From Polychytrium aggregatum (lineage: Eukaryota; Chytridiomycota; Chytridiomycetes; Polychytriales): a stretch of 64,000 nucleotides of DNA. Location of the stretch: NCBI RefSeq assembly GCF_025602895.1, contig NW_026516280.1:124001-188000 (forward strand), in the 5' to 3' direction. The notes beneath the pieces were generated by a model. It did not search any database. It was given only the letters and a program-made list of their open reading frames with translations, and was not told the DNA's origin. The position numbers were made by a program, and so were the translations under genes. Shown piece after piece: positions 10,001-62,229 of the stretch. Numbering within the stretch: the first letter of the stretch is position 1; every line of letters begins with the position of its first letter.

Positions 10001-12050
10001 GTTTCTTGTCAGCGCCTTCAACATCGAGGCGCCACAGCTGGCCTCCCAGGAGGAAACGGCCCGCTTCGACCAAATGCGCTCCACGATGCAGAAAAAGTAC
10101 GTGCCTGTCTGAGAGCACTAGGGCGACGGCTGTGAGACATGTCCCAGCCCAGAGACTCTCAGCCTACTCTGAGTGCTCAAGAGATCGATGACTTTGCCAC
10201 AAATCATCGGTGTCATACGGTCGATGATCCATTAACACCTGTGTCGCTGGATCGGCTCATTGTGGCAAAAAATAGAGTTCTGAACACCGCCACTTTCTGG
10301 GTCGAACACCACTGGCACGACTTTGCGCGCAACAGCGACCTGCGAAAGGGTCTGGAAGAGTTCATGCGCCTGGTGGTCATCAACCGCGACAAAGGAGGGA
10401 CGGATTTCACGATCCAGCTCTCGGACATCAACTATCTGATTGAAACCCAGGTAGGTGCATCACCAAATGCCGATGATGAAACCCGCCCCACGATGCGTCC
10501 ACCAAGACTGACCAGAACTCGGCCGCTTGGCGCTGGTCGAGGGCCCGTTCAGACCAAGAAGCACGAGGAGATATTCCTGTACTATAAAACGGTCGAGAAG
10601 AAGGGCAAGATGATGGAAAGCATGTTCACGGAGCTCACTCCCGAGGAGCTCGGCAAGCAAATGTGCATTCACAACTTCAAACTCTTCAAGAACATCCATC
10701 CAATTGAGTTCCTGAGCCAGATATGGAAGAAGCCCGAGGATGAGTCGACGCCGTGCCTCGACTTTTTCGTGTCTCGCTTCGACAAGGAGTCGTATTGGGT
10801 TGCCACCGAGATTGTACAGATCAAGGATGCCAAGAAGCGGTCTGCGGTGCTGAAGAACTTTATCATGACGGCCAAGGTGGGATGAGAGGGCTTTGAGGCA
10901 GCTATGATGGTTCGGAGCGGTTGATTCCAAAGGATGCATGGTCGACAATTGCGTTCAGTGTTTGACACGGCGCACGATCAACCGATTGGTTGGCAGGCAT
11001 GCAAAACGTACAATAATTACTTTAGCCTCTTCGCGCTGATCGCGGGTCTGGGGCTGACGCCCGTGACAAGACTGAAGAAGACCTGGGAGGTAAGCGTCTC
11101 TCTCACCCGTCAGCACCTGCGAAAGTAGCAGCGACATATACAACGATGTGCGCGATAGGGTTGATCCTGCTGCGAGGACAACTCAAGGACGGTACGGATT
11201 TATGCACTCATATCTTGCGACCCGATACCCCAATTTGCACAAGATGCTGCCGGACAAGACCAAGAAGACATATCAGGAGCTTGAGAAGATCAGCGACCCT
11301 TCACGGAACATGAAAAACTACCGCGATGCCCTCGCTGCCTCTGCGCCACCGATTGTCCCGTTTCTGCGTGAGTAGTGCAGCGGAGGGGTTGCGGAGATGC
11401 TATAATGGCGACCGTGGTGATGGTTGCTTGGTTGCTTGCGATGGTCAAGCATTCGATTGTGCTGCTCCGAGCTCGAATCGACTCTGATGGATAAGTCATT
11501 GCTCGTGGTGGGCGTGGCTCGATACTGCCGTTGTGCGCATGCTTTGTACAGAGTGCTAACCGCAGGACTGGTCATCAGCAATTTATCTCAAGGATCTGAC
11601 CTTCATGAACGACGGCAACCAGTCCAAGGTGCGCGAGATGATCAACTTTGACAAGCTGCGAATGATGGCCAATCGAGTCAAGGACATCTCGGCGCTCGTC
11701 GGAATAGAATACAAGGACTTTGTGCCCAATCCGATGATTCAGAACTACCTGGCCAAGCCACCGATCGAAAAGAGTATCACGAAGCTGAAGGAGATGTCGC
11801 TTGAGTGGTAAGCGGATGTCGAAGGCCACGTTTGCACTGGCTCGAGCGGAAAGTGTGCGAAGAGCGGTGCAAGTCGGGCTCAAGCAGTCCAGTCCGCGAC
11901 ATGGCGATTGCCAATTGCATGACGAATGCATAAAACGGCGATTGTTCCTGCGACCGCTTGCTGGTGCCGCCCCGGTTGAAAGGGTCGTTGATGGCAGTTA
12001 ACAGTCCTCTGCGTCTCAATTGATCGCCCCACAGTGAGAAGGCCGCTTGA
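7094..12050 (+). CDS. Ras guanine nucleotide exchange factor with tandem ubiquitin-fold (RBD/RA-like) segments
   Basis: Predicted activator of a Ras/Rap-type GTPase. The 12-exon model is 7094-7547, 7767-7874, 8008-8752, 8963-9430, 9622-9686, 9934-10096, 10276-10450, 10553-10876, 10997-11089, 11244-11367, 11579-11807 and 12035-12050, giving 987 residues in frame. In order it has: a ubiquitin-like segment (about residues 75-150), a long Ser-rich linker, a second similar segment (about 480-560), RasGEF-N (DTFMMTYRTFMTPTELMEF), and the CDC25-type catalytic domain (IHPIEFLSQIW, SRNMKNYRDAL, YLKDLTFMNDGN). The C-terminus SLECEKAA comes from a 16-nt last exon and resembles the usual SLKCEP end of RasGEFs. 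The least certain junction is the start of exon 6. The first Met could also lie in an unseen upstream exon. Which GTPase it acts on cannot be told. Confidence 0.88.
7566..7636. repeat. 12-bp tandem repeat in RasGEF intron 1
   Basis: Five to six copies of a dodecamer of the type CATCGCACTCGG, with CATCGTACTCGG variants, lie just downstream of the 5' splice site of intron 1. Confidence 0.8.
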
Positions 12051-12128
12051 TTTAAAGTGGACAAAGGCACCGACATCGAGAGCGGGTCGACCACGGTGCG
12101 GCGATTCCATAGAACCTGTCAGAAAATA

Positions 12129-12465
12129 CAGCCGATCCAATAAAAACGGGACACCCCGGGTTTTGGTCGTTGATGAATGTTATCACTCAACACATCGCGC
12201 TGGCCATGACCATTCAGTGATGGAATTCTGGATCTGAATCAAGGACGCTTTCTCGTTCAGATGGCTCCCGCAAGCGAAAGGCCGAGTATCTCGATATCGA
12301 TACACCATGGAGCTGTCCAGAGAATCGAGTGGATGCACCACACAAAGAGATTGCCAACCAGGATAGAAACAATCGTATGGCTTTGCCCACTGGAGCCTAC
12401 GATCAGCAGACCTGTGTCGCTGATGCCAGAGAAGGACTGTCCCGTTTCTCTCTGGATTGACTCTG
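12129..12465 (+). mobile_element. Fanzor-family element, copy C (337-bp deletion derivative)
   Basis: A TIR-bounded remnant. The left terminal repeat (12129-12153) and right terminal repeat (12438-12465) match each other in inverted orientation and match the ends of copies A and B. TA stands at 12127-12128 directly outside the left end; the right flank has decayed. Inside are short scraps of the same coding sequence as copy A: the RuvC-I-like piece LDLNQGR near 12230-12260, the SER/SPD segment, then a jump to the EYLDID stretch of the zinc-ribbon region. At least two internal deletions have therefore removed most of the nuclease. No usable reading frame is left. It lies in the gap between the convergent RasGEF gene and the minus-strand gene ending near 12.7 kb. 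Confidence 0.85.
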
Positions 12466-18204: not shown

Positions 18205-18246
18205 TACAGTCGGCCCAGAAAGAAACGGGACAGTTCCTTCCTGGCA

Positions 18247-18699
18247 TCAGATGTCTGAACCCCGCTGACTGACTGTAGGCCCAGCGGGCAAGCCATGGCA
18301 TTGCACTCCTGTCTTCGTCGGCAATCGAGTGGTTTTGGTTGGTTTGGGAAGCACAGTCTTGAATACACCCGGTCGATCTCCTGTGGCGATGATCGACTGG
18401 CATACCGAGATCATGTTCCTGGCTGCATTGATGTCTCGATCCCACAGCGTATGGCAGCTTGCACAGCTCCGGACAAAGTGTGGTTTCTCGATATCAAGAT
18501 GCTCGACCTTCTCGAGTCGCTTGGCTTCCCGACAATGTGAGCACACCTGGGATGTGTTGAACTCGTTCACCGAGCACACATGAATGAACTGCTCAAAATA
18601 CCGAGCGAACCTGAGTCTCCTGGGACTGGAAGCATATCCCTTCCCCTGTTTCCAGGATGCATTCCCAAAGGCAATCACCACTTCGGTCTCCTTGGACAT
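18247..18699 (-). pseudogene. Truncated Fanzor (TnpB-like) nuclease, C-terminal half only
   Basis: A 150-residue frame starting MSKETEVVIAFGNASW. It keeps the segment before the zinc ribbon (FGNASWKQGKGY), the conserved Glu in SVNEFNTSQVCSHC (the alternate RuvC-II glutamate of Fanzors), the zinc-ribbon Cys pairs CSHC and CASC, and the RuvC-III Asp in DRDINAARNM. RuvC-I and the whole N-terminal recognition part are missing. Compared with copy A it also lacks a 14-residue stretch just after FEQFIH (in frame). The frame has no internal stop, so it could be translated, but on its own it cannot form a complete RuvC site. I treat it as a deletion derivative. Confidence 0.85.
18261..18288 (-). ncRNA. 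Candidate guide-RNA (omega/fRNA-like) 3' hairpin of copy B
   Basis: A perfect 7-bp stem CCCGCTG/CAGCGGG encloses a 14-nt loop inside the 3' end of the coding frame, 29 bp inside the right terminal repeat. The same stem is in copy A. In TnpB and Fanzor elements the guide RNA is made from the 3' end of the gene up to the right end, so this hairpin is a reasonable part of its scaffold. Expression is inferred only. Confidence 0.4.
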
Positions 18700-18807
18700 A
18701 CTGAATAGCTATGAATGCGATGAGTGGGTGTGTGTATTCAGGTTCCAGAAATACACACTGTCCTGGCTCAAAACGGGGGTGTCCCATTTCATTTTGGAAA
18801 CGCTGTA

Positions 18808-31482: not shown

Positions 31483-31761
31483 TATCATACTCGATTGGCA
31501 TATACAACCACCCCACGGAGCTCGAGGGGGGGGGGAACGAACCAAGCGAAATGTGCCGAGCCAGAGCATCGCTGCCACTGCCCACTGGCGCAAAGGCCGG
31601 GATAGGCCAGACGTCGTCTCTGGCTGGGAGAGAGTTGCCTCCGTTGCTCTCGCATTCGGCGGTAGGGAGGAGGCACCAAAGAGGGATGGTGTGCATCCTC
31701 CACAATTCCGATGCTTGGATGAGTGCAGATCGCAGACGGATCGCGCCGGGCCAAGGTTTTA
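31483..31761. other. 3' flank of the GPI-protein gene
   Basis: Spacer with a G9 run near 31527-31535. It leads directly into the left end of Fanzor-family copy A. No gene seen. Confidence 0.6.
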
Positions 31762-31883
31762 TAGTCAATCCCAGAAAAAAAAAAAAAGAGACACCCGTGA
31801 CCACAACCATTCGCCACACACTCGATTTCCGCATCGCTGCACTGAGAGCCATCGCTTGCATTCAGTGACCAGATGACCCACAA

Positions 31884-32816
31884 ATGGGCCACTTGTGCGA
31901 TGCGTTTCTGGATCTGAATCGAGGACGCCACTGTGCAGTATTTCTGCCAGCCCAAAAATGCGCTGGATTTGAGGAGATTCTTTCTTCCCCAAAGGCAGAA
32001 CCAACCATCGTCGCTATTTTCTCGCCAGATGGCTCCCCACAAGCGAAAGACACCAGCCAGGCGACCAAGTGGATCCAGAGCACCCACAAGATCCTTGGTC
32101 TGCAGGAATGGATGAGCACCACACCAAGTCCCAAGATCCCTGGGTTGGATCCCTTCCTGCAATACATTCGCCATGTGTTCGATGGAGACATGCTGGAGAA
32201 ACAGCTGTACTTCAGCCTGACTCGGCGACGGCGATTCAAGCGACTCGATCTCCACAGCAAGCGACAGCGCACTGTCCACGAGATGTGCAAGCAAGTCATC
32301 GACCAGGCACCAAAGGAGACCGAAGTGGTGATTGTCTTTGGGAATGCCTCCTGGAAGCAAGGGAAGGGATATGCATCCAGTCCCAGGAGGCTCAGGTTCG
32401 CCAAGTACTTTGAGCAATTCATCCACCACCAGAGACGACCACCAGACCGATCCGTCTCCAAGATCCATGTGTACTCGGTGAACGAGTTCAACACATCCCA
32501 GGTGTGCTCACATTGTCGGGAAGCCAAGCGACTTGAGTCACCCGAGTATCTTGATATCGAGAAACCACACTTTGTCCGGAGCTGTGCAAGCTGCCATACG
32601 CTGTGGGATCGAGACATCAATGCAGCCAGGAATATGATCTCGGTATGCCAGTCGATCATCGCCACAGGAGATCGACCGGGTGTATTCAAGACTGTGCTTC
32701 CCAAACCAACCAAAACCACTCGATTGCCGACGAAGACAGGAGTGCAATGCCATGGCTTGCCCGCTGGGCCTACAAGTCAGTCAGCGGGCTTCAGAAGCCA
32801 GGAAGGAACTGTCTGA
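31884..32816 (+). CDS. Fanzor (eukaryotic TnpB homologue), RuvC and zinc-ribbon part, N-terminally truncated
   Basis: The 310-residue frame is uninterrupted and preceded by an in-frame stop at 31866. The RuvC-I Asp is probably D10 in FLDLNRGRH. A basic helical segment (FSLTRRRRFKRLDLHSKRQR) follows, then VIVFGNASWKQGKGY, the alternate RuvC-II Glu in SVNEFNTSQVCSHC, the zinc-ribbon pairs CSHC and CASC, and the RuvC-III Asp in DRDINAARNM. These are the hallmarks of Fanzor/TnpB RNA-guided nucleases. Complete Fanzors carry a further N-terminal wedge/recognition part that is absent here. It may be an inert deletion derivative, or a domesticated minimal protein since the frame is intact. Its C-terminal coding sequence is nearly identical to that of copy B. 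Confidence 0.8.
   Translation: MGHLCDAFLDLNRGRHCAVFLPAQKCAGFEEILSSPKAEPTIVAIFSPDGSPQAKDTSQATKWIQSTHKILGLQEWMSTTPSPKIPGLDPFLQYIRHVFDGDMLEKQLYFSLTRRRRFKRLDLHSKRQRTVHEMCKQVIDQAPKETEVVIVFGNASWKQGKGYASSPRRLRFAKYFEQFIHHQRRPPDRSVSKIHVYSVNEFNTSQVCSHCREAKRLESPEYLDIEKPHFVRSCASCHTLWDRDINAARNMISVCQSIIATGDRPGVFKTVLPKPTKTTRLPTKTGVQCHGLPAGPTSQSAGFRSQEGTV
32760..32788 (+). ncRNA. Candidate guide-RNA (omega/fRNA-like) 3' hairpin of copy A
   Basis: The CCCGCTG/CAGCGGG stem, as in copy B but with a loop one base longer, overlaps the 3' end of the frame and stands 21 bp inside the right terminal repeat. Loop-length drift with an intact stem fits RNA-level constraint, but two copies cannot prove it. Confidence 0.4.
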
Positions 32817-33077
32817 TATAATATGACCGACTGCGCCACGCCCTGATCTGCATCCGCCCCGGCTGTGTTAGTGTTGGTGTTTGGTTTTGGTTGCTGGTCA
32901 GAGTGGTGGGGTGGGAAACAGTGTATCGTTGGAACGCAGCATCCGCACGATGCACCCATTCGATTTGCGGATGCGGGCAGCAGGTCGCGATGACAATCAG
33001 ATTTGTATTTCCCTTCTTGGTCCACCGCTGTGTGGATGGCCCAAAAGCCACTAGTGCACACCAACACGCTGATTCTG

Positions 33078-35492
33078 CTACTGCTTGGCGGCCTTCAGGA
33101 ACTCAGTGACGCTCTGCGGGTTCTTCTTGCCCTTGGACGCCTCTACGCCGCTGCTGACGTCGACCGCGAACGGCTTGCCGCTCTGGCGGATGGCTTCGAG
33201 GACATTCTGAGCAGTCAGGCCGCCAGCAACCCAGATCGGGATGCCAGCGTCGCTGCGGTCGTCTGCGGTGTGCTGGACATGGCTGGCGATCGCCCAGTCA
33301 AACGTGAGCCCGCTGCCGCCTTGCTGTTCCAGGCCTTTGACGCCCGTGTCGAGCAGAGCGCCGGCCAGGTACGATGAGCCTTGCTGGATTCGGGCGCGGA
33401 TGCTCTGCGGCGTGTCGTCCTTCATGACATGGTAGGCTTTGATGACAGGGACCGAGATCAGCCGAGCCAAGCTTGGGTCTTCGTTGCCGTGGAACTGAAC
33501 CAGATCCAGTCCAACCGCGGCGACAATTTCGTTGATGTAGTTGACGGCGTGGTTCGAGAAGACACCGACAAACAGCGGCCCTCTGCGGTTCGCACGCGAC
33601 ACTCGATCGCGAATTGCACCAGACGTGGCCTGGTACCAGAGCGAGGCACTCAGGCCGGGCAGGGGATATGGCATCTGAATGGCCTCTGTTGGGCCGGTCC
33701 CAAACTCGGCACAGACACGGCCGACAATCTCCCGGGCCGTTTCCAGCGTCACTTGGCGTGGGGAGGATGCAAAGATGAGTCCGATGAAGTCGGCGCCTTC
33801 CTTGGCGGCCAGCAGAGCATCCTCGACGTTGGTGATACCACAGATCTTGGCCAGAGTGCGAGGAAGCGGCCGGGAGCCATCGCTATCCTTATGGTCGTCG
33901 GGGAGTCCGCGCAGCTCGCGGATGAGGGCACCCTTGTCGTTGGCGCGCATCAGGGCCTCGCCCACGAGAACGGCTCGTGCGCCGTCGGCAACGTATTTTC
34001 GAACGTCGGCCCGGCCGGTGATGCCACTGAGGGCAATCAGCATTACATCCTTGGGGACCATGCCCGAGAGGCTGCTGGTGCGGTTCATGTCGACGTTGAA
34101 GGTGTTGAGATCGCGGTTGTTGACGCCGACGATCTTGGCGCCGACTGCGATGGCTCGCTCCATCTCGCGGACACTGGCAACTTCCACGAGAGGCTCCATG
34201 CCGAACACGCGCGAGTACTCGAGCAGATCCTTGAGCTTCTCGTCGTCCAGGATCGCAACGATCAGGAGCAGCGTGTCGGCGCCGTAGGCACGAGCTTCCA
34301 GCACCTGGAACCGGTCGACAACAAAGTCCTTGCGGAGAACCGCGGGTCGGTCTTCCACGCCTTCAAGTGCAACTCGGACTGCACGCATGTCCTCGAGATG
34401 GCCCTTGAACCATTTGGGCTCGGTCAAGACCGAGATGGCGGCGGCGCCACCGTGAGCGTACTGCAGCGCCTGAGTGGGTGCATGGGCGTTGATGTCGATC
34501 GGACCCTTGCTCGGGCTAGCTCGCTTGATCTCGGCAAGGACCGCGACGAGGTTGCCGCCGGTAGCGCGCTCGAGTCGCTCCTTGAAGTCGATCTGGCGGG
34601 GGGCAAGGCCGAGAGCGATCGTGCGCTGGAGGTGGTACTCGCTGTTGCCGGGTCGGGCACGGGCCTCCGAGACATCCAGCAGGCGCTGACGATAGATTGT
34701 CTGCAAGATCGAAGGAGCTGCGGCGGCAGACTCTCCGGGACGAGAGGTTGCCTCCTTCGAGCCACTGGCAGCAGCCCCGGTCGAGTTCATCTTGGAAGCC
34801 TTGGCCAGATCGATGCCGCCAGAGCCATATGCTCCGCCGCGCTTCCGAGCACCGACGTTGTCGAGCGGCTTGACGGCACCAGGGTTGACCTTCAGCGTGT
34901 TCCAGGTGCCGCCTTCCCACTTGAGGAAATTGGCAAACATGGTCTTGCCGGCTTCACTGGCGATACTCTCTGGATGGTACTGGACGCCCTCCATCACGTA
35001 GTGGCGATGGCGGACACCCATGACGAGGCCGTTGGCAGTCCAGCTCGTGATCTCGAGCTGGTCCTCAGGCAGGGTCTTGGGATCACCGGCCAGAGAGTGG
35101 TACCGGGTCACCTCAATGTTCTGCGGGACGCCCTCGTAAAGGCCCCGCCCGTCGTGGGTGATGGGCGAGGTCTTGCCGTGGACAATCTCGCCGGCATACG
35201 TAACTGTGCCGCCGTAGACCTCGTACATGCACTGCTCGCCGAGACAGACACCCAGGATCGGGACCTTGCCAGCAAAGGCTCGGATCACGTCCATGGAGAT
35301 GCCGGCGTCGACGGGCTTGCCCGGGCCAGGCGAGATGACGACGTTGCGGGGCTTCATGGCAAGGCACTCTTCCACCGTGACTTGGTCGTGGCGGAAGACC
35401 CGAACGTCAGCACCGAGCTCCGACAGGAACTGGTAGACGTTCCAGGTGAAGCTATCGTAGTTGTCGATCAGGAGAGTGATTCCGGACGACAT
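33078..35492 (-). CDS. TRPC: Trifunctional tryptophan enzyme: glutamine amidotransferase, IGP synthase, PRA isomerase
   Basis: Single-exon, 804 residues. In order: the class-I glutamine amidotransferase of anthranilate synthase (LLIDNYDSFTWN, nucleophile Cys83 in GVCLGEQCMYEVYGG, the His/Glu pair in VQYHPESIASE); a linker; indole-3-glycerol-phosphate synthase (VLAEIKRASPSKGPID, DALLLIV-like barrel strands, AEALM-type end seen as GEALMRAND); and phosphoribosylanthranilate isomerase (KICGITNVEDALLAA, DFIGLIFASSPRQV, VQFHGNE seen as LVQFHGNEDP). This is the filamentous-fungus architecture; yeast splits off the isomerase as TRP1. It lies 129 bp downstream of TRP2 on the same strand, so both subunits of anthranilate synthase are encoded together. 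Confidence 0.97.
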   Translation of the reverse strand: MSSGITLLIDNYDSFTWNVYQFLSELGADVRVFRHDQVTVEECLAMKPRNVVISPGPGKPVDAGISMDVIRAFAGKVPILGVCLGEQCMYEVYGGTVTYAGEIVHGKTSPITHDGRGLYEGVPQNIEVTRYHSLAGDPKTLPEDQLEITSWTANGLVMGVRHRHYVMEGVQYHPESIASEAGKTMFANFLKWEGGTWNTLKVNPGAVKPLDNVGARKRGGAYGSGGIDLAKASKMNSTGAAASGSKEATSRPGESAAAAPSILQTIYRQRLLDVSEARARPGNSEYHLQRTIALGLAPRQIDFKERLERATGGNLVAVLAEIKRASPSKGPIDINAHAPTQALQYAHGGAAAISVLTEPKWFKGHLEDMRAVRVALEGVEDRPAVLRKDFVVDRFQVLEARAYGADTLLLIVAILDDEKLKDLLEYSRVFGMEPLVEVASVREMERAIAVGAKIVGVNNRDLNTFNVDMNRTSSLSGMVPKDVMLIALSGITGRADVRKYVADGARAVLVGEALMRANDKGALIRELRGLPDDHKDSDGSRPLPRTLAKICGITNVEDALLAAKEGADFIGLIFASSPRQVTLETAREIVGRVCAEFGTGPTEAIQMPYPLPGLSASLWYQATSGAIRDRVSRANRRGPLFVGVFSNHAVNYINEIVAAVGLDLVQFHGNEDPSLARLISVPVIKAYHVMKDDTPQSIRARIQQGSSYLAGALLDTGVKGLEQQGGSGLTFDWAIASHVQHTADDRSDAGIPIWVAGGLTAQNVLEAIRQSGKPFAVDVSSGVEASKGKKNPQSVTEFLKAAKQ

Positions 35493-54209: not shown

Positions 54210-57180
54210 TTACAACTTGTCCTCGAGATCGATTTGGTCCAGGGCCTCCTCGATTCGCTTGACGTGCTTGATGACCGAGTGGAAGAACGACACGGTCTCG
54301 TTGGCGGTCTCCTTGCGCTGGCGCTGCTGCGAGAGCTTCTGGGTGCGTTCCTCCAGATCCTTGAGGAACTGGTTCTGGAACTGGTACATGGCCAGACGCA
54401 GGACCCGTCTAAAGGTTTTGGCGATGCGGGTCTTGTTGGTCTCGGCAAAGCGGGTGCGCTCGAGGTGCTCGACCATCTTGGTGCGGACTTGATTCTGGAC
54501 GGTCGCCTTGACGTCCGAAAGGCTGTAGGCGATCAAGCCAACGCCTGTGGGTGGTGGCAAAGCAGGTTAGAATCAGCGAGTCGACAGGCTCAATGCAATG
54601 CTACCCCCGCGTGTGCCGCCGTCGGAGCCAACACATCCCCCGTAGCCAACATCAACAGTCACGTCATCCGATTGCCAACGTCAGCAGAAACGCCACCACG
54701 ACCACCGAGCCCACCCGACACCGACCTGCAACGCCAAGACCCGCAAACAGCAGCTTGGCCAGACTCGGGTTGCCCGCCAGCTTGAGGCCAGCCTTGTATC
54801 CGATCAGGCCACCGAGGGCCATGCCCACGCCGGGCACGTACGACTGGGCAATGTCCAGCTTGTCGCGCAGATCGAAAAAGTCGTCCAGCTCCAGCGGCAG
54901 GGTCTTGATCTTGTCGTCGTTCAGCTCGCCATCAAAGGCACTGGTGACGACGCCAAGATCGATCTTGGGCGGCTGGTCCATGCACTCGGCCGCCAGCTTC
55001 TGGATCTCCTGGATGCAGCTGAGGGCGCTCTTGCTGGCAAACTCCTCAGCCTTCTTGATGCGGTGGGTGGCGAGTTTGTAGATCATGTTGCGCAGGTCGC
55101 GGGCATACTGCCACATATACACGATGCCGTTCCACTCGAGCTCGTCGGTGTAGGACTCGAGGTCCTCGGCGAGGCCAGAGAGCTGCTTCTCGCAGTAGGC
55201 CTCGACCTGGCTGCCGGCGTCCTCGATCACCTTGTCGACGTCGTCAAAGTATTTTTCCTTGATACCCTTCATCATTTCGTACGACGGCAGATTGACGTCC
55301 ATCTCGTGGGCGAGCGAGTTGAAGGTCTCCTCGGCCTGATCGTTGTTGAAGGCCGAGATCTTGCGGACGTCGGCGAGGAGGTTATGCAGGTAGATCTTGG
55401 CCGGTGCCAGTTTGGAGCGCGCACGCTTGTCGAGAATGAAGGATCGGAGGCACTCTTCCAGACGCACAAAGTCGTCCAGGGATGTGTTCTTGTATTTGGC
55501 AGGCTCCGCGACGATCGGTTCATGGACCTTGCCCGAGGCAGCGTCCTCGAGCGCCTTCTGCTTCTCGAGATCGTGTTGCAGGGTCTGGCGGGCACTGACA
55601 AAGTGCACCAGCGACGAGGCGTCGCTGAAGGTGTTGGGGGAGATTTGGCGGATCTGCTCGAGGATTTCGCTTCGGCAGCGCTCGGCCCGACGGATGGTGT
55701 CGAACTTGTTGACGACGATGAAGATGTAGGCCTTTTCCTTGCCGGCGGTCTGCAGGAACTCGCGGCCCTGAGATCCACGATGATGCAGCAAAGGCAAGGC
55801 GATGCCAGATCATACCCACAGGATGTGGAGAGTCGAGGGAGCCGGGCAATCGCAGACGGTGTCCAGAGCAATTGCAGTGCGATCGAAAGGTTATGGAGAG
55901 AAATGGTGCGATTAGTCCCTGAAGCGGCGACTGAAAGGCAGCCCAGCAGCGATCGGTCGTTGCCGAGATGGACTGACTCGGTGTGTCGGAGATGATGCTC
56001 ATCCTGCAGCAGCCGTGCCAGGCAGCTTCCTCCCCAGGCAGCTGCACTCCTCTACACGTACCGAGAGCGTAAAGTGGTTTTCGGCATTAACGACAAAGAC
56101 GACAACGTCAATCTCCTCCTGCTGTGCAAACAGCGCCGTGGTCTTGGTGGTGTCGATGTTGAGGCCGGGCGAGTCGATCAGCGAAATGTCGACGATGCCG
56201 TTGTGGAGCAGGGTGTGGTCCTTGTGCCGGTTGTCGCGGCAGTAGACCTTGAGCAGCTCAAAGTTCTCCTCATTCTCCTCGACAGTGTCGCGCAGATGGC
56301 GAATGTCCAGGCGGGTAAAGGTGGTCGAGTCCAGGCGGTTGTAGCCTTCGGGATCGTGGATGCCGTGGACCTCCTCGATGCCGTCGTTCTGCTCTGCATC
56401 GACGACCTCGCAAAACAGGGCGGTGCAGGGCTGCTGGTCGTCCGGCACGACCTCGCGGCGCAGAACGGCGTTGACAAAGGTGCTCTTGCCGGCGTTGAGA
56501 TCGCCGGTGACCAGCACCTTGGAGCGAGTGTCGGTGATACGGTTGTGGAGCTTTTCGAGATGGGCGAGCGACTCCTTGAACTTGACGTCGAGCAGCTGCG
56601 AGATGAGGGTGATGTCGGCGGTGCTGAGCGAGTCGGGGTTGTACGAGTAATTCTTGAGGTCGAGCTGCAGCACTCGCAGGGGGTCCTTTGGAACCAGGAC
56701 TCGCGAGTGGGAGACCGACGCAGACATGGTCGGGGTCGGCGCCCGCTGCGGGGATGTCGACAGCGAAGGCGAGCCGCTGTCCACGATCATGGACGAGCGT
56801 CGGCTCGTCTCGGTCCTGGCGGGGAGCGAGGCGGTCGGATACCGGACGACATACGGGCTGGTGCTGGGCCGGACCTCCTCCAGAAGGAGCCTGGTCTCCT
56901 GGAGCAGGGACGAGAGCTTGGCCTTCTTCTCGCCGTAGAGCTGGGCCTTGACATGGGCGGCGACGTGATCGGCGTTGGAGGGGGCAGCCATGGAGGCGGT
57001 CAGGTCCACCTGGGTGAAGGACGACGACAGGTCCTTGAGGGAGCTCAGGGCCGAGGAGACGTTGGAGGAGATGGAGCTGGCCAGCGATGCAGTGTCGAAG
57101 AACTTGGAGTCGGCCTTATCGCCGGCATCAACATGGTGCTTGGCGACGGGAGGCTGGGGCAGTTCCGACTGCTGGTTCAT
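54210..57180 (-). CDS. FZO1: Mitofusin, outer-membrane dynamin-like GTPase (FZO1)
   Basis: Drives mitochondrial outer-membrane fusion. Exons 56062-57180, 54726-55767 and 54210-54544 give 831 residues (yeast Fzo1 855). Ser-rich N-terminal region and coiled coil; GTPase motifs G1 GDLNAGKSTFVN, G3 SLIDSPGLN, G4 IVVNKFD; helical HR domains; a Gly/Ala-rich membrane hairpin near residues 680-730 (GVGMALGGLIGYKAGLKLAG, then LLFAGLGVAGVGLIAYSL, created by the exon 2/3 join); and a C-terminal HR2-like coiled coil ending LDQIDLEDKL. The join TLS/GREF restores the family's HFTLS-EF sequence. The ATG at 57180 was chosen because upstream in-frame Mets lead only low-complexity sequence. Confidence 0.93.
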
Positions 57181-57878
57181 TGCGGCAGGGAGAGGACGGC
57201 GGCCTGGCGAGACAGAGACACACGGACAGAGGCAGACAGAGGCAGACGGCAGCAGGCCCGATCGAGGGAGGCCGAGAGCGCAGGCGGGGGAGAGCGACGG
57301 GGATGCGGATGGCGAGCGAGCGCAGGAAAAGGCATGCAAGCGCAGGAGATGGCATGCAAAGGCCGGGCTTGCCCGCAGGACAGGAGGATCGGCGACGCCA
57401 AAGGGCGGCGGGCGCGGAAGAAAAAAATAGCGTGGCTTGACCTTTGTGTGTGTGTGGTTGCGCCGCTGTCTGTGTGGCCGGCTCAAGCTGGCCGAGACGC
57501 CAACACCGCCGTGCGACGCTTGTGTCCGGTTGCACCAATACAGCCAATCAGCGCTCGTGTGTGTGTGTGTCAAGTCCGATTTCGGACAGTCGAGCCGGAT
57601 CGAGCCGTGTGGTTCTGTCTGCAGCGCCACGCTCCGGCATCGCCACGAGATCGACGAGTGCATTCGAGACCACGCTTCCCAACCAACTAAAACGAAGCAA
57701 TGATCAACCAGGACTAGAAACAGTCGCGCGACCAGCCACAGGGGCTGCTGGTACCAGAGATGACAGGCACTGTTCCGGGGTTTCTGGATTGACTGTATAT
57801 TCGCGATCCGCTCCATCCGGTCCGCCCCCATTCGCTATCGCTTTGCAGTGCGTCTGGTCGACTTGATCCATGCTCCGC
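57181..57878. other. 5' region of FZO1 and 3' flank of CFAP141
   Basis: Promoter-like DNA with GTGTGTGT runs near 57441-57453 and 57558-57570. The antisense frames through here extend from the FZO1 antisense and are not genes. Confidence 0.6.
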
Positions 57879-59559: not shown

Positions 59560-62229
59560 TTAGCCGTTGGCGGCCTGTTCGACGCATGCGACAATCATCG
59601 CCAGCCGCTTGAACGGCCGCTGGCAGGTGAGAAGGGTATACTTGATCTGCTGACTGAAGGGCATGATCTGGGTGATCCAAAAGGACAGATCGGCAATCTC
59701 GGAAGGGATTGGGCCATACTGACGGTCAAACTGCGCGAGTTGGCTCGGCGGTAGATACTGCCGCAGGTTCTGCACAAACGTGCGGGTCGTTTCGAGATGC
59801 AGGCGCACGATCTCGGCATCGTTGACATGTGAGGGCTGCCCGCCGTGCGCGCTCGAGTAGTTGCGCATCACCTGGGTCGTGACTGAGGGCGTGCCTGCCT
59901 CGGGCGATTCGCCTGCGATTTCGTCCTCAATGTCCAGGTCATCGAAGCGCTCGATGCGAGCCATGTGGTATCCATCAGGGTGGTTCACGCATTCAAGAAT
60001 ACGAAAGCGGTGGATGCCCGTGACCATGACGACCAGACGGGGCAGCGGTCCTTCTGGGGTTTGCGCCAGGTCAGATCCTTGCACGGGACGACAGTGGAGC
60101 ACGTCAACCAGGGTGCCGACATACGGCCGTGCCGACGGAGGAATGACGCCGAACTTTTTCGTGGTTTCCATCACGCGCTTGATCATGAGCTGAAGATGGG
60201 CGGGAATGGTGAGCGGTTGGGATGAGGAGCACAATACAAATAGCAGGAGTTAGGGCGAGTGCCGGTGCCACCCATTTGGAAATGATTGTGGTGCTGTCCC
60301 TGTTCTTGCCATATGCAGGCCGTGCCCCCATCACAAGTGGTGCGCCGATGAGCAAAATGGCATCGTGGTAGACTTGGCACATAGTGGTGGTGACGGTAAC
60401 ATTGTTACCGCCAGCAGTCTCTGCACTCGCCGAGTCCCGGCTGCATCTCCCAGACACTTACCCGGTACTTGGGCTCGTGGATATGCAGGCCCTGCCCCTC
60501 GCCGGGACAGAGAACCGTACACACAAAGATCGGGATGACTTCCTGTTCCTTCACGGCCTCGTGCGCCATGCGACGGCTCCGGTACTCTTCTGCGTGGTAC
60601 CTCTCCAGGATCTGGGTGAGGATGCTGTTGGACGGGCGGCCAGAAAAGTAGCTCCAGCCGGGCAAGTCGGTGCGGCAGAGCGGGCAGCTGAGGCGGTGGT
60701 CGACGGTCTGCAGCACGCACGACCGGCACCAGGTGTGGCCACATGGCGTCGTGACGGGCTCGAGCAGAGTGTTCATGCACAGCGAGCACTGCAATTCTGC
60801 GAGATCGGGGTCGATCGGCGGCGGCGGCTCCTGACGTGCCGCCAGGGCGGCATGGAGCTGGACTTGGGCTTCTGGGCACATCGGCCATGCCGAGAGATTG
60901 AGCTGCTCGAAGGCAGCCGGCAGAGTGACCGCACCCGTACCATCGCCGGATATTGCAGAGCGAGGCATGGTTTCGGTTGGCGGGGCCAGATTCTGGATTT
61001 CCGTCTTGGCATATCCAAGCGATGTGGGGTCGAACGACGCTGCTGTGTGCATGGACGAGACCTCGGTCCCGGTGGAGGCCAGTAGAGTGCTCTCCGAGTG
61101 TCGGTTGGTGAGATTGGGGGACGGGATGGGATTCTGGGACCGGAACTGCATTTGACTGCCGAGCTCGTTCAGCAGGGCATGGCCCCGGCCGTTAGCTGGG
61201 TTGAGGGCGATGGCCACCTGGATGTCGGCGAGGGCCTCCAGCAGTTGGTTGCGCATCATGTATAGCTGCGCCCGTTTCAGGTACAGGACCTGGAGGAACA
61301 GGCCCTGGGCAATGCATTCGGTGTAGATTTGCAGGAGCTTGAGAGCGGCTCCGGTGTTGGCCATGTCGGCAGGCAGAAAGGGCGATAGCTTCCACGAGGA
61401 GTAGGACAGCGGCAGCTCGGAGGTGTGCTCCGAGCCCGTGGCGGCTTTGTATACGCCGGCTTGTTTTGGATAGAGCTGGTGCAGATACTGATTGACGAGG
61501 ACATCGGGCTTTTCCCGGCGGTAGCAGTGGCGCCGTCCACATTCGGTGCAGGGGCACTGGTAAAACTGGAAGTTGGAGAGCACTTCTGAAGGGCTGGTTG
61601 AGGCGGAGGCTAGTTCCTGGTTGGAGGAAAGCGGTCCCATCCGAGGCGACACCAGGGGTTGGAGTACCGAGTCCGAGTTTGCCGATGGCAGCCAATGGCA
61701 GCCGATGGGAATGGTAGTTCGTTTACATAGGTCCATGATGGTTCACGTTGCCAAGTCGACGGAGAGACGTTCCAGAGGGAGGGAACTGCGGGTTAGCGGG
61801 GCTTACTGGACAATGGCGGTGCGAACTGGTGAGCGATTGGTCGCTCGAGATGGGTTGGTGGCCGAATGGCAGTGGATGTTTGTTGGACTACCAACGGGAC
61901 GAAAAGGAGACATCCCATCCAATGCAACGAGGCCAGTACAACGAGGTCGGTGCAGCGAGGCCGACAGATGGTGCTGATGTCGACCTCGGCCGAGGACGAG
62001 GGGCCTGGCTCCGATGCAGTCGGGGGGAGGGTGCTTCGGCTGCTGGACCCGTGCTTGGGCTGTGGCCAGGACATACCTGATCGCGGATTTCTTGGTGTGG
62101 TAGGCAGGTCAAGCAAATCGAGCGCCCACACGGCAGGGTCAGCGGGTCGCATAGGAGCTCGTTGCAGGCTGGGCAGGTGAAGAGAGGCTGGACGAACGAT
62201 GGAGCCGGCGGCGGCAACTCGGGTTGCAT
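59560..62229 (-). CDS. LONRF-type RING-TPR-RING-LON substrate-binding protein
   Basis: Predicted ubiquitin ligase of the LONRF class. Exons 62077-62229, 60462-61556 and 59560-60189 give 625 residues. The first RING (FTCPACNELLCDPLTLPCGR, ending LTC) is completed across intron 1 by CPCTECGRRHCYRREKPDVL. Helical TPR-like repeats follow (YLKRAQLYMMRNQLLEALAD). The second RING is classical (LQCSLCMNTLLEPVTTPCGH, then CPLCRTDLPG). The LON substrate-binding domain starts before the third exon (IPIFVCTVLCPGEGQGLHIH) and crosses the join at EPKYRLMIKRVMETTKKFG, which matches the human LONRF EPRYRLMIRR segment. The upstream frame to 62670 is probably 5' UTR; the start at 62229 precedes the first RING. 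Confidence 0.88.

Follow-up and report, generated by a model that had tools for sequence, protein, structure and literature searches.

Three related segments with Fanzor coding sequence lie within this stretch of DNA, and the question they raise is what kind of element left them behind and whether they are more than its relics. The window, by which we mean the whole 64,000-nucleotide stretch that was analysed, is C395:124001-188000 in a genome of 64.7 Mb and 418 contigs. Our data show that the segments, here called A, B and C, are genuine remnants of Fanzor1-carrying transposons, dead or non-autonomous. The fuller account given below, in which all three are deletion derivatives of Fanzor1-mariner elements, a second Fanzor lineage (FzII) was captured by a CACTA-like carrier and A is a mosaic, is in our view very probable as a whole.

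Three different deletion products

Sequence comparison within the window located A, B and C where a sequence-only reading of this DNA had placed three Fanzor copies, with the ends shifting slightly once the sequence was read directly. Over 508 bp, A and B have 85.6% identity (E about 1e-179); what C shares with either of them is confined to short blocks (E 0.009 to 4e-7). The features are as follows, FzI and FzII being two full-length Fanzor lineages found elsewhere in the genome and L061 a locus with a long FzII frame.

31760 to 32813 (right end approximate), plus strand: copy A, an internal-deletion derivative of a Tc1/mariner-Fanzor element
31798 to 31847, plus strand: stub of the mariner transposase N-terminus in A, TTIRHTLDFRIAALRA (50 bp, matching the FzI element at 78% by BLAST)
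31897 to 32054, plus strand: transposase 3′ end, spacer and first Fanzor codons (A 136-293 aligned to L061 714-869, 92%)
32051 to 32813, plus strand: Fanzor C-terminal coding part (A 290-1052 aligned to L061 2746-3508, 95.2%)
31884 to 32816, plus strand: 310-residue frame of A, in the Fanzor frame only from about residue 58 to 310
32460 to 32636, plus strand: TNB or C4 zinc ribbon with the rearranged RuvC-II Glu and the RuvC-III Asp (PF07282, residues 193-251)
32037 to 32633, plus strand: mosaic patch, with 43 positions differing from contig C257 (32 substitutions, 11 gap positions)
18205 to 18807, minus strand: copy B, a shorter derivative with both mariner TIRs and a TA at each end
18247 to 18699, minus strand: 150-residue frame of B, containing Fanzor sequence that begins at the RuvC-II strand and has a TNB match
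12127 to 12465, plus strand: copy C, ghost-like, mostly TIRs with short transposase and Fanzor stubs

All three segments retain mariner ends, stubs and a 3′ Fanzor part. The sequence-only reading held that they share ends, which is true of B, with both TIRs and a TA on each side, but the right end of C is mutated and that of A incomplete. A begins with TATAGTCAATCCCAG..., its left TIR is worn, and its right TIR is broken off after ACTGTC. Alignment to full-length relatives and to the FzI element identifies B and C as further deletion products of the family of A and bears out the view that C is the most deleted of the three. A, B and C are thus three separate deletion products and do not represent copies of a single derivative. 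That they are non-autonomous derivatives of a full-length element, as had been proposed, agrees with the uninterrupted relatives present elsewhere in the genome.

The 310-residue frame had been taken to keep the RuvC-I, alternate RuvC-II, zinc-ribbon and RuvC-III residues of a Fanzor. Relative to L061 (read as its reverse complement), A lacks 1,876 bp (870-2745), with a 4-bp overlap at the junction, and this deletion takes almost the whole N-terminal half of the protein plus the IDPG of RuvC-I. The REC/WED N-terminal half is likewise deleted relative to L062, a second full-length FzII locus, so that the Fanzor part of A runs from QATKWIQ to the right end with neither the N-terminal half nor RuvC-I. 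The native Fanzor ATG of A, at 32029, opens a frame that a stop ends after 28 codons. Up to about residue 57, the 310-residue frame is an out-of-frame translation of the transposase 3′ end, spacer and start of Fanzor, and the Asp of an ‘IFSPDG’ at residue 49, whose codon overlaps the native ATG in another frame, fits the loose spacing of the published motif. A motif search found no DPG or DxG (the RuvC-I catalytic Asp) in A or B. Hence the claim that A keeps RuvC-I was wrong, IDPG being deleted relative to L061 and DPG absent from A. The remaining residues are indeed there: E201, the rearranged RuvC-II Glu, stands six residues ahead of the first CxxC in the series CSHC...CASC...WDRD, and the TNB match covers this region. 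The frame itself exists at its proposed position and carries that match, but its first 57 or so residues are not in the Fanzor frame.

Relatives of A are numerous. At least 40 strong matches to its DNA, A itself included, were found in the genome (best 40 of 1,276 loose candidates), with 93-96% identity among the matches listed; C and a 186-bp part of B, used as queries, likewise each gave at least 40. The clustering of three copies was weighed as a signal and rejected, the Poisson probability of three or more in 64 kb being 0.08-0.24 for an assumed 1,000-1,700 relatives in the whole assembly; it is 0.014 for an assumed 500. Several contig pairs have almost identical flanks (C395 and C257, L014 and L015, L012 and L016, L017 and L022), which suggests that both haplotypes were kept apart in the assembly, so that repeat counts may be inflated up to twofold. 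A, B and C themselves are ordinary relics.

Host-type genes of the window include exportin-T/Xpo1, RasGEF, dynamin-like GTPase and RING finger genes (1169-2458, 10139-10885, 55999-57831 and 60405-61736). Beside A, a trifunctional tryptophan gene with GATase, IGPS and PRAI domains occupies 33078-35492 on the minus strand and ends about 265 bp from it; this domain order is typical of fungi.

Full-length relatives in two kinds of carrier

A complete FzI element of about 3.64 kb lies beside one relative, at locus L009, with both TIRs at a TA. In this one element the left TIR reads TACAGGCAATCCAATA...ACGGGACA and the right TIR TGTCCCG...GTGTA, the transposase matches DDE_3 at 7.9e-21, and a Fanzor frame of 790 residues contains IGIDPG, TNEFNTSQVC and NRDVNAARNM. 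TIRs, a TA target site and a DDE transposase thus place it with Tc1/mariner. Across the genome the transposase has 147 matches, 133 of them free of stops, and FzI has 57, of which 46 are stop-free. A transposase lies within 1.5 kb upstream in at least 36 of the 57 FzI matches, a lower bound because the count was made against 77 of the 147 transposase matches. A 283-codon transposase frame recurs in 34 of the 147 beside the 325-codon frame; in the only such frame read, at L009, the last 42 or so residues are replaced relative to L060 (FFGVESPPIWG).

A full-length, mariner-ended relative, as the sequence-only reading required, exists. The parent foreseen there was incompletely described, however: full-length forms were found, but they come with a mariner transposase as well (FzI) or in a CACTA-like carrier (FzII). 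In this account the ancestor was a transposon of Tc1/mariner type, bounded by TA-flanked TIRs and containing a gene for a DDE_3 transposase with a Fanzor1 gene behind it, the arrangement of the one FzI element read. Deletions cost the derivatives the greater part of the transposase together with the N-terminal half of Fanzor, including RuvC-I in A as its alignment documents, and transposase from longer elements presumably copies such short forms in trans.

The closest full-length relatives of A belong to the second lineage, FzII, which is 41% identical to FzI in alignment and has a stop-free frame of at least 768 codons in 23 of 128 genome matches. L062 has an 863-residue frame starting MAPKRK; the frame of L061 has 768 codons, its Fanzor N-terminus and start lying in another frame. 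L062 (reverse complement, about 543-908) also holds some 366 extra bp, placed behind the transposase 3′ remnant and ahead of the start of Fanzor, that are absent from L061. Both FzI and FzII have a long N-terminal part followed in order by DPG, alternate Glu, C4 zinc finger and RD, the zinc finger and NRD of FzI being read from the alignment because the motif pattern missed its finger. The DPG is at 539 in FzI and 554 in FzII, with the Glu 176 and 195 residues further on. These distances exceed the spacing printed as x(120160) in PMC10711439, taken as 120 to 160, and fit the range of 125-275 in PMC3627910. Judged by these features, full-length FzI and FzII are Fanzor1-type.

The surroundings of FzII are not those of FzI. 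From the 40 strong A matches listed, 20 were fetched with flanks, one being the homologue of A itself (L025). At the other 19, the ends of a carrier that begins CACTATCAATTTTTTCCGG and ends TTTTTTCATAGTG are both present in 14 cases, one is present in 4 and neither in 1 (L023). When homologous contig pairs are counted once, the 14 two-ended loci represent 11 sites. The CACTAT ends are of CACTA type, although the mutual similarity of the two carrier ends extends for only about 7-9 bp, and a 3-bp duplication is exact at 6 of the 11 sites and not at 5 (in one pair it is exact in one homologue only). L061 and L062 share the same carrier left end and were read to about 60 bp short of the right end. 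Inside the carrier, the Fanzor gene stands between the mariner transposase 3′ end, which precedes it, and the mariner right TIR, beyond which the sequence is again that of the carrier; the carrier copies read show no further long frame, a transposase included. FzII occurs in this setting both as a full gene and as a 1.6-kb deletion form.

At least 40 carrier left ends occur at 97-100% identity (best 40 of 327 candidates), and a listed left end lies upstream of at least 7 of the 23 stop-free FzII frames, L061 and L062 also having one when read directly. None of the best 40 of 327 candidates spans the joined flanks expected of a carrier lacking Fanzor, the mariner left breakpoint used for this search being uncertain. 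The CACTA transposase domain PF02992 (Transposase_21) has 29 matches in the genome, and at the one locus read, L063, an element with this domain has the ends CACTATGAAAAAAA and TTTTTTTCATCGTG, 5.68 kb apart, with no matching 3-bp duplication. FzII thus appears to have moved from a mariner element to a CACTA-like carrier. This sister lineage would have been captured with the mariner transposase 3′ end and right TIR still flanking it, and would have spread in the carrier in its full and deleted forms. The ends, the target-site duplications and the resident CACTA transposase suggest that such a transposase mobilises the carrier.

Mobile units are also nested and adjoining. The complete mariner-FzI element at L009 (from 4234 on; L059, C90:331833-335469) sits at a TA inside the 3′ end of a CACTA-like carrier, and the carrier copy that it entered itself holds a truncated FzII, making three nested mobile units. 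At L028 a B-type derivative adjoins a carrier copy in the opposite orientation, and derivative types can thus sit side by side.

Mosaic structure, guide RNA and selection

A, C and the tested part of B recur, with almost unchanged offset, on contig C257, which is probably the other haplotype of C395. Over about 6 kb the flanks of A show 5 substitutions and one 2-base gap between the two contigs, an identity of about 99.9%. A and its homologue differ at 44 positions, one of which is a base in an A-run at 31775; the others make up the patch at 32037-32633, and the two copies have different Fanzor deletion junctions. A 201-bp query from the main part of the patch of A has 99% identity with two further copies (C413, L021), each of which its position assigns to a carrier. 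The corresponding patch and junction of C257 are unmatched elsewhere among the best 40 matches, the next being 88% over the full query and at most 95% beyond the junction. As assembled, A is a mosaic whose patch resembles carrier copies and not its own homologue, and overwriting of A by a carrier copy through ectopic gene conversion is the simplest interpretation. The reverse direction is a less simple but possible alternative.

The patch is confined to the repeat, between unique flanks that are almost identical, and is up to 99% like other copies, as might also be expected of an artefact of assembly or polishing in a high-copy repeat. An artefact accounts poorly for homologues with different junctions, the one in C257 recurring nowhere else among the best 40 candidates, and for the agreement of the same two contigs in C (99%) and in the tested 186 bp of B (100%). 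We therefore think it unlikely that the mosaic arose in this way, while giving the possibility real weight, and keep to gene conversion.

The derivatives could instead owe their survival to a guide RNA, with an omega RNA supplied in trans to full Fanzors in the manner of ghost Spu-1 copies. Guide-only relics have a precedent in Spizellomyces punctatus, where, according to PMC10432273, the omega RNA spans the right-end inverted repeat and 134 ghost elements without Fanzor retain their ends and a similar 75-nt right-end region. Here the Fanzor 3′ end and right TIR are kept, and the alignment of right ends from A-like carrier, B-type, C-type and full copies extends for about 100 nt into the element (24 aligned, out of 35 collected once homologous duplicates and unclear ends had been set aside). 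Such conservation is expected with an omega RNA, and equally if the TIR alone matters. Against a guide RNA, the alignment fold of these right ends gave no compensatory change in 7 predicted pairs, and Rfam had no match in the window at its own cut-offs. The right end is no more conserved than the remainder in 11 C-type copies, and in 11 carrier copies the right end plus the next 20 nt scores 0.86, lower than 18 of the 21 windows scored. The right TIR of A is, moreover, partly lost. With neither covariation, Rfam match nor conservation excess, a constrained guide RNA in the derivatives is unsupported, and we judge a role as guide donors improbable.

Pairwise dN/dS was calculated from one pair in each case: the transposase gives 0.022 over 258 codons, FzI 0.33 over 632 and FzII 0.34 over 765. 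The truncated copies in carriers also look constrained at first sight. In nineteen of them that share the truncation, 250 codons of the reference frame contain no stop and pN/pS is 0.32, although as the best DNA matches they are a sample that favours well-kept frames; relative to A, 7 of the 19 have a 1-base deletion and 1 has an indel pair. These values could be read as a sign that A is a working mini-Fanzor, or a regulatory C-terminal fragment, kept by selection. RuvC-I and the N-terminal half are nevertheless absent from A, and changes private to single truncated copies give a pN/pS of only 0.66, with no new stop. Between A and its C257 homologue the ratio is 0.81, in a pair confounded by the mosaic patch and with the homologue frameshifted. 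Furthermore, in a tree built from 21 truncated copies and 7 of full length, in which 6 of 25 inner branches are well supported, the two kinds are mixed, with 6 label changes against a mean of 6.4 for shuffled labels. The low pN/pS may thus come from exchange with full genes or repeated origin from them and is not proof that the truncated proteins work. A working truncated nuclease, for which 0.32 had looked positive, is therefore unsupported, and that A is functional in either sense seems to us very improbable.

Purifying selection on FzII might persist because its RNA-guided cuts drive ectopic copying from copy to copy, a homing-like drive for a transposase-less CACTA-like carrier in which it is the only gene. 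Were this so, it would account for the patch in A, for the mixing of full and truncated copies and for the failure to find Fanzor-free carriers among the best 40 of 327 candidates. We offer the idea as a speculative one that is rather improbable at present.

The assignment to the Fanzor family is well supported. The 310-residue frame of A matches the Pfam profile PF07282 (Cas12f1-like_TNB) at 3.4e-11, and the 150-residue frame of B does so at 3.1e-11; the profile search that the sequence-only reading had named as a check thus leaves A in the expected superfamily. A profile built from FzI, FzII, A and B had a single, modest match with E≤0.01 in the PDB, SpuFz1 (8gkh, E 0.0044), with a core stretch and then a zinc-finger stretch in order (i-Evalues 0.14 and 58, neither significant alone). 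Full FzII alone gave no PDB match at 0.01, and A alone gave weak phmmer matches to the PDB, the best at 0.015 (a Cas12m) with SpuFz1 not among the 11. The weakness of these last matches is the one point for a chance likeness, with A encoding an unrelated zinc-ribbon protein, and against a TNB match of 43.6 bits over a cut-off of 26.3, the ordered motifs of the full-length relatives and the recovery of SpuFz1 by profile we give it practically no credence.

Known Fanzor elements and the apparent change of carrier

Mariner-Fanzors and ‘ghost’ elements are already published. As described by Bao and Jurka 2013 (PMC3627910), PGv-1 and PUl-1 are Fanzor1 elements of Tc1/mariner type that also have TA duplications, TIRs and a mariner-type transposase, and elements with Fanzor alone are described there too; unlike these two as described there, the present genome has dozens of stop-free FzI frames that are 94-95% identical, together with a variant transposase whose C-terminus is replaced and several kinds of deletion derivative. 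SPu-1 with SpuFz1 and its ghosts in S. punctatus (PMC10432273) are likewise TA-type Fanzor1 elements whose partial or Fanzor-less copies keep both ends and the right-end region. SPu-1 is an element of about 2.1 kb with Fanzor only, whereas the FzI element adds a transposase and FzII sits in another carrier. Fanzor1 in transposase-less carriers is known from the MuDR-like ROr-4, PBl-3 and MCi-4 and from the Helitrons CRe-1 to 3, all recognised by ends and duplications; in contrast to these, as PMC3627910 describes them, the carrier here has CACTA-like ends, and old mariner remains flank the gene.

What is unusual here is the apparent carrier switch of FzII. With CACTA/EnSpm elements (Transposase_21) the carrier shares CACTAT ends, 3-bp duplications at the sites counted above and a resident PF02992 element with similar ends at one locus; unlike them, the carrier copies read have no Transposase_21, and the mutual match of the ends is short. 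We found no report of a Fanzor in a CACTA/EnSpm carrier in the open-licence literature. One paper names both Fanzor and EnSpm, and the words refer there to unrelated repeats, not to such a combination.

The role of Fanzors for their hosts or carriers is, to our knowledge, unsettled. In the present genome a complete mariner-Fanzor element occurs together with many close relatives, a deletion series and an apparent change of carrier. Because the remains of the old carrier are still in place, the apparent capture of the gene by a new superfamily can be retraced stage by stage. The apparent selection on FzII in a setting with no transposase of its own, together with a mosaic allele, makes it testable within one organism whether Fanzor breaks spread or homogenise copies. 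If the homing-like idea were true, it would mean that a eukaryotic Fanzor drives a second transposon superfamily.
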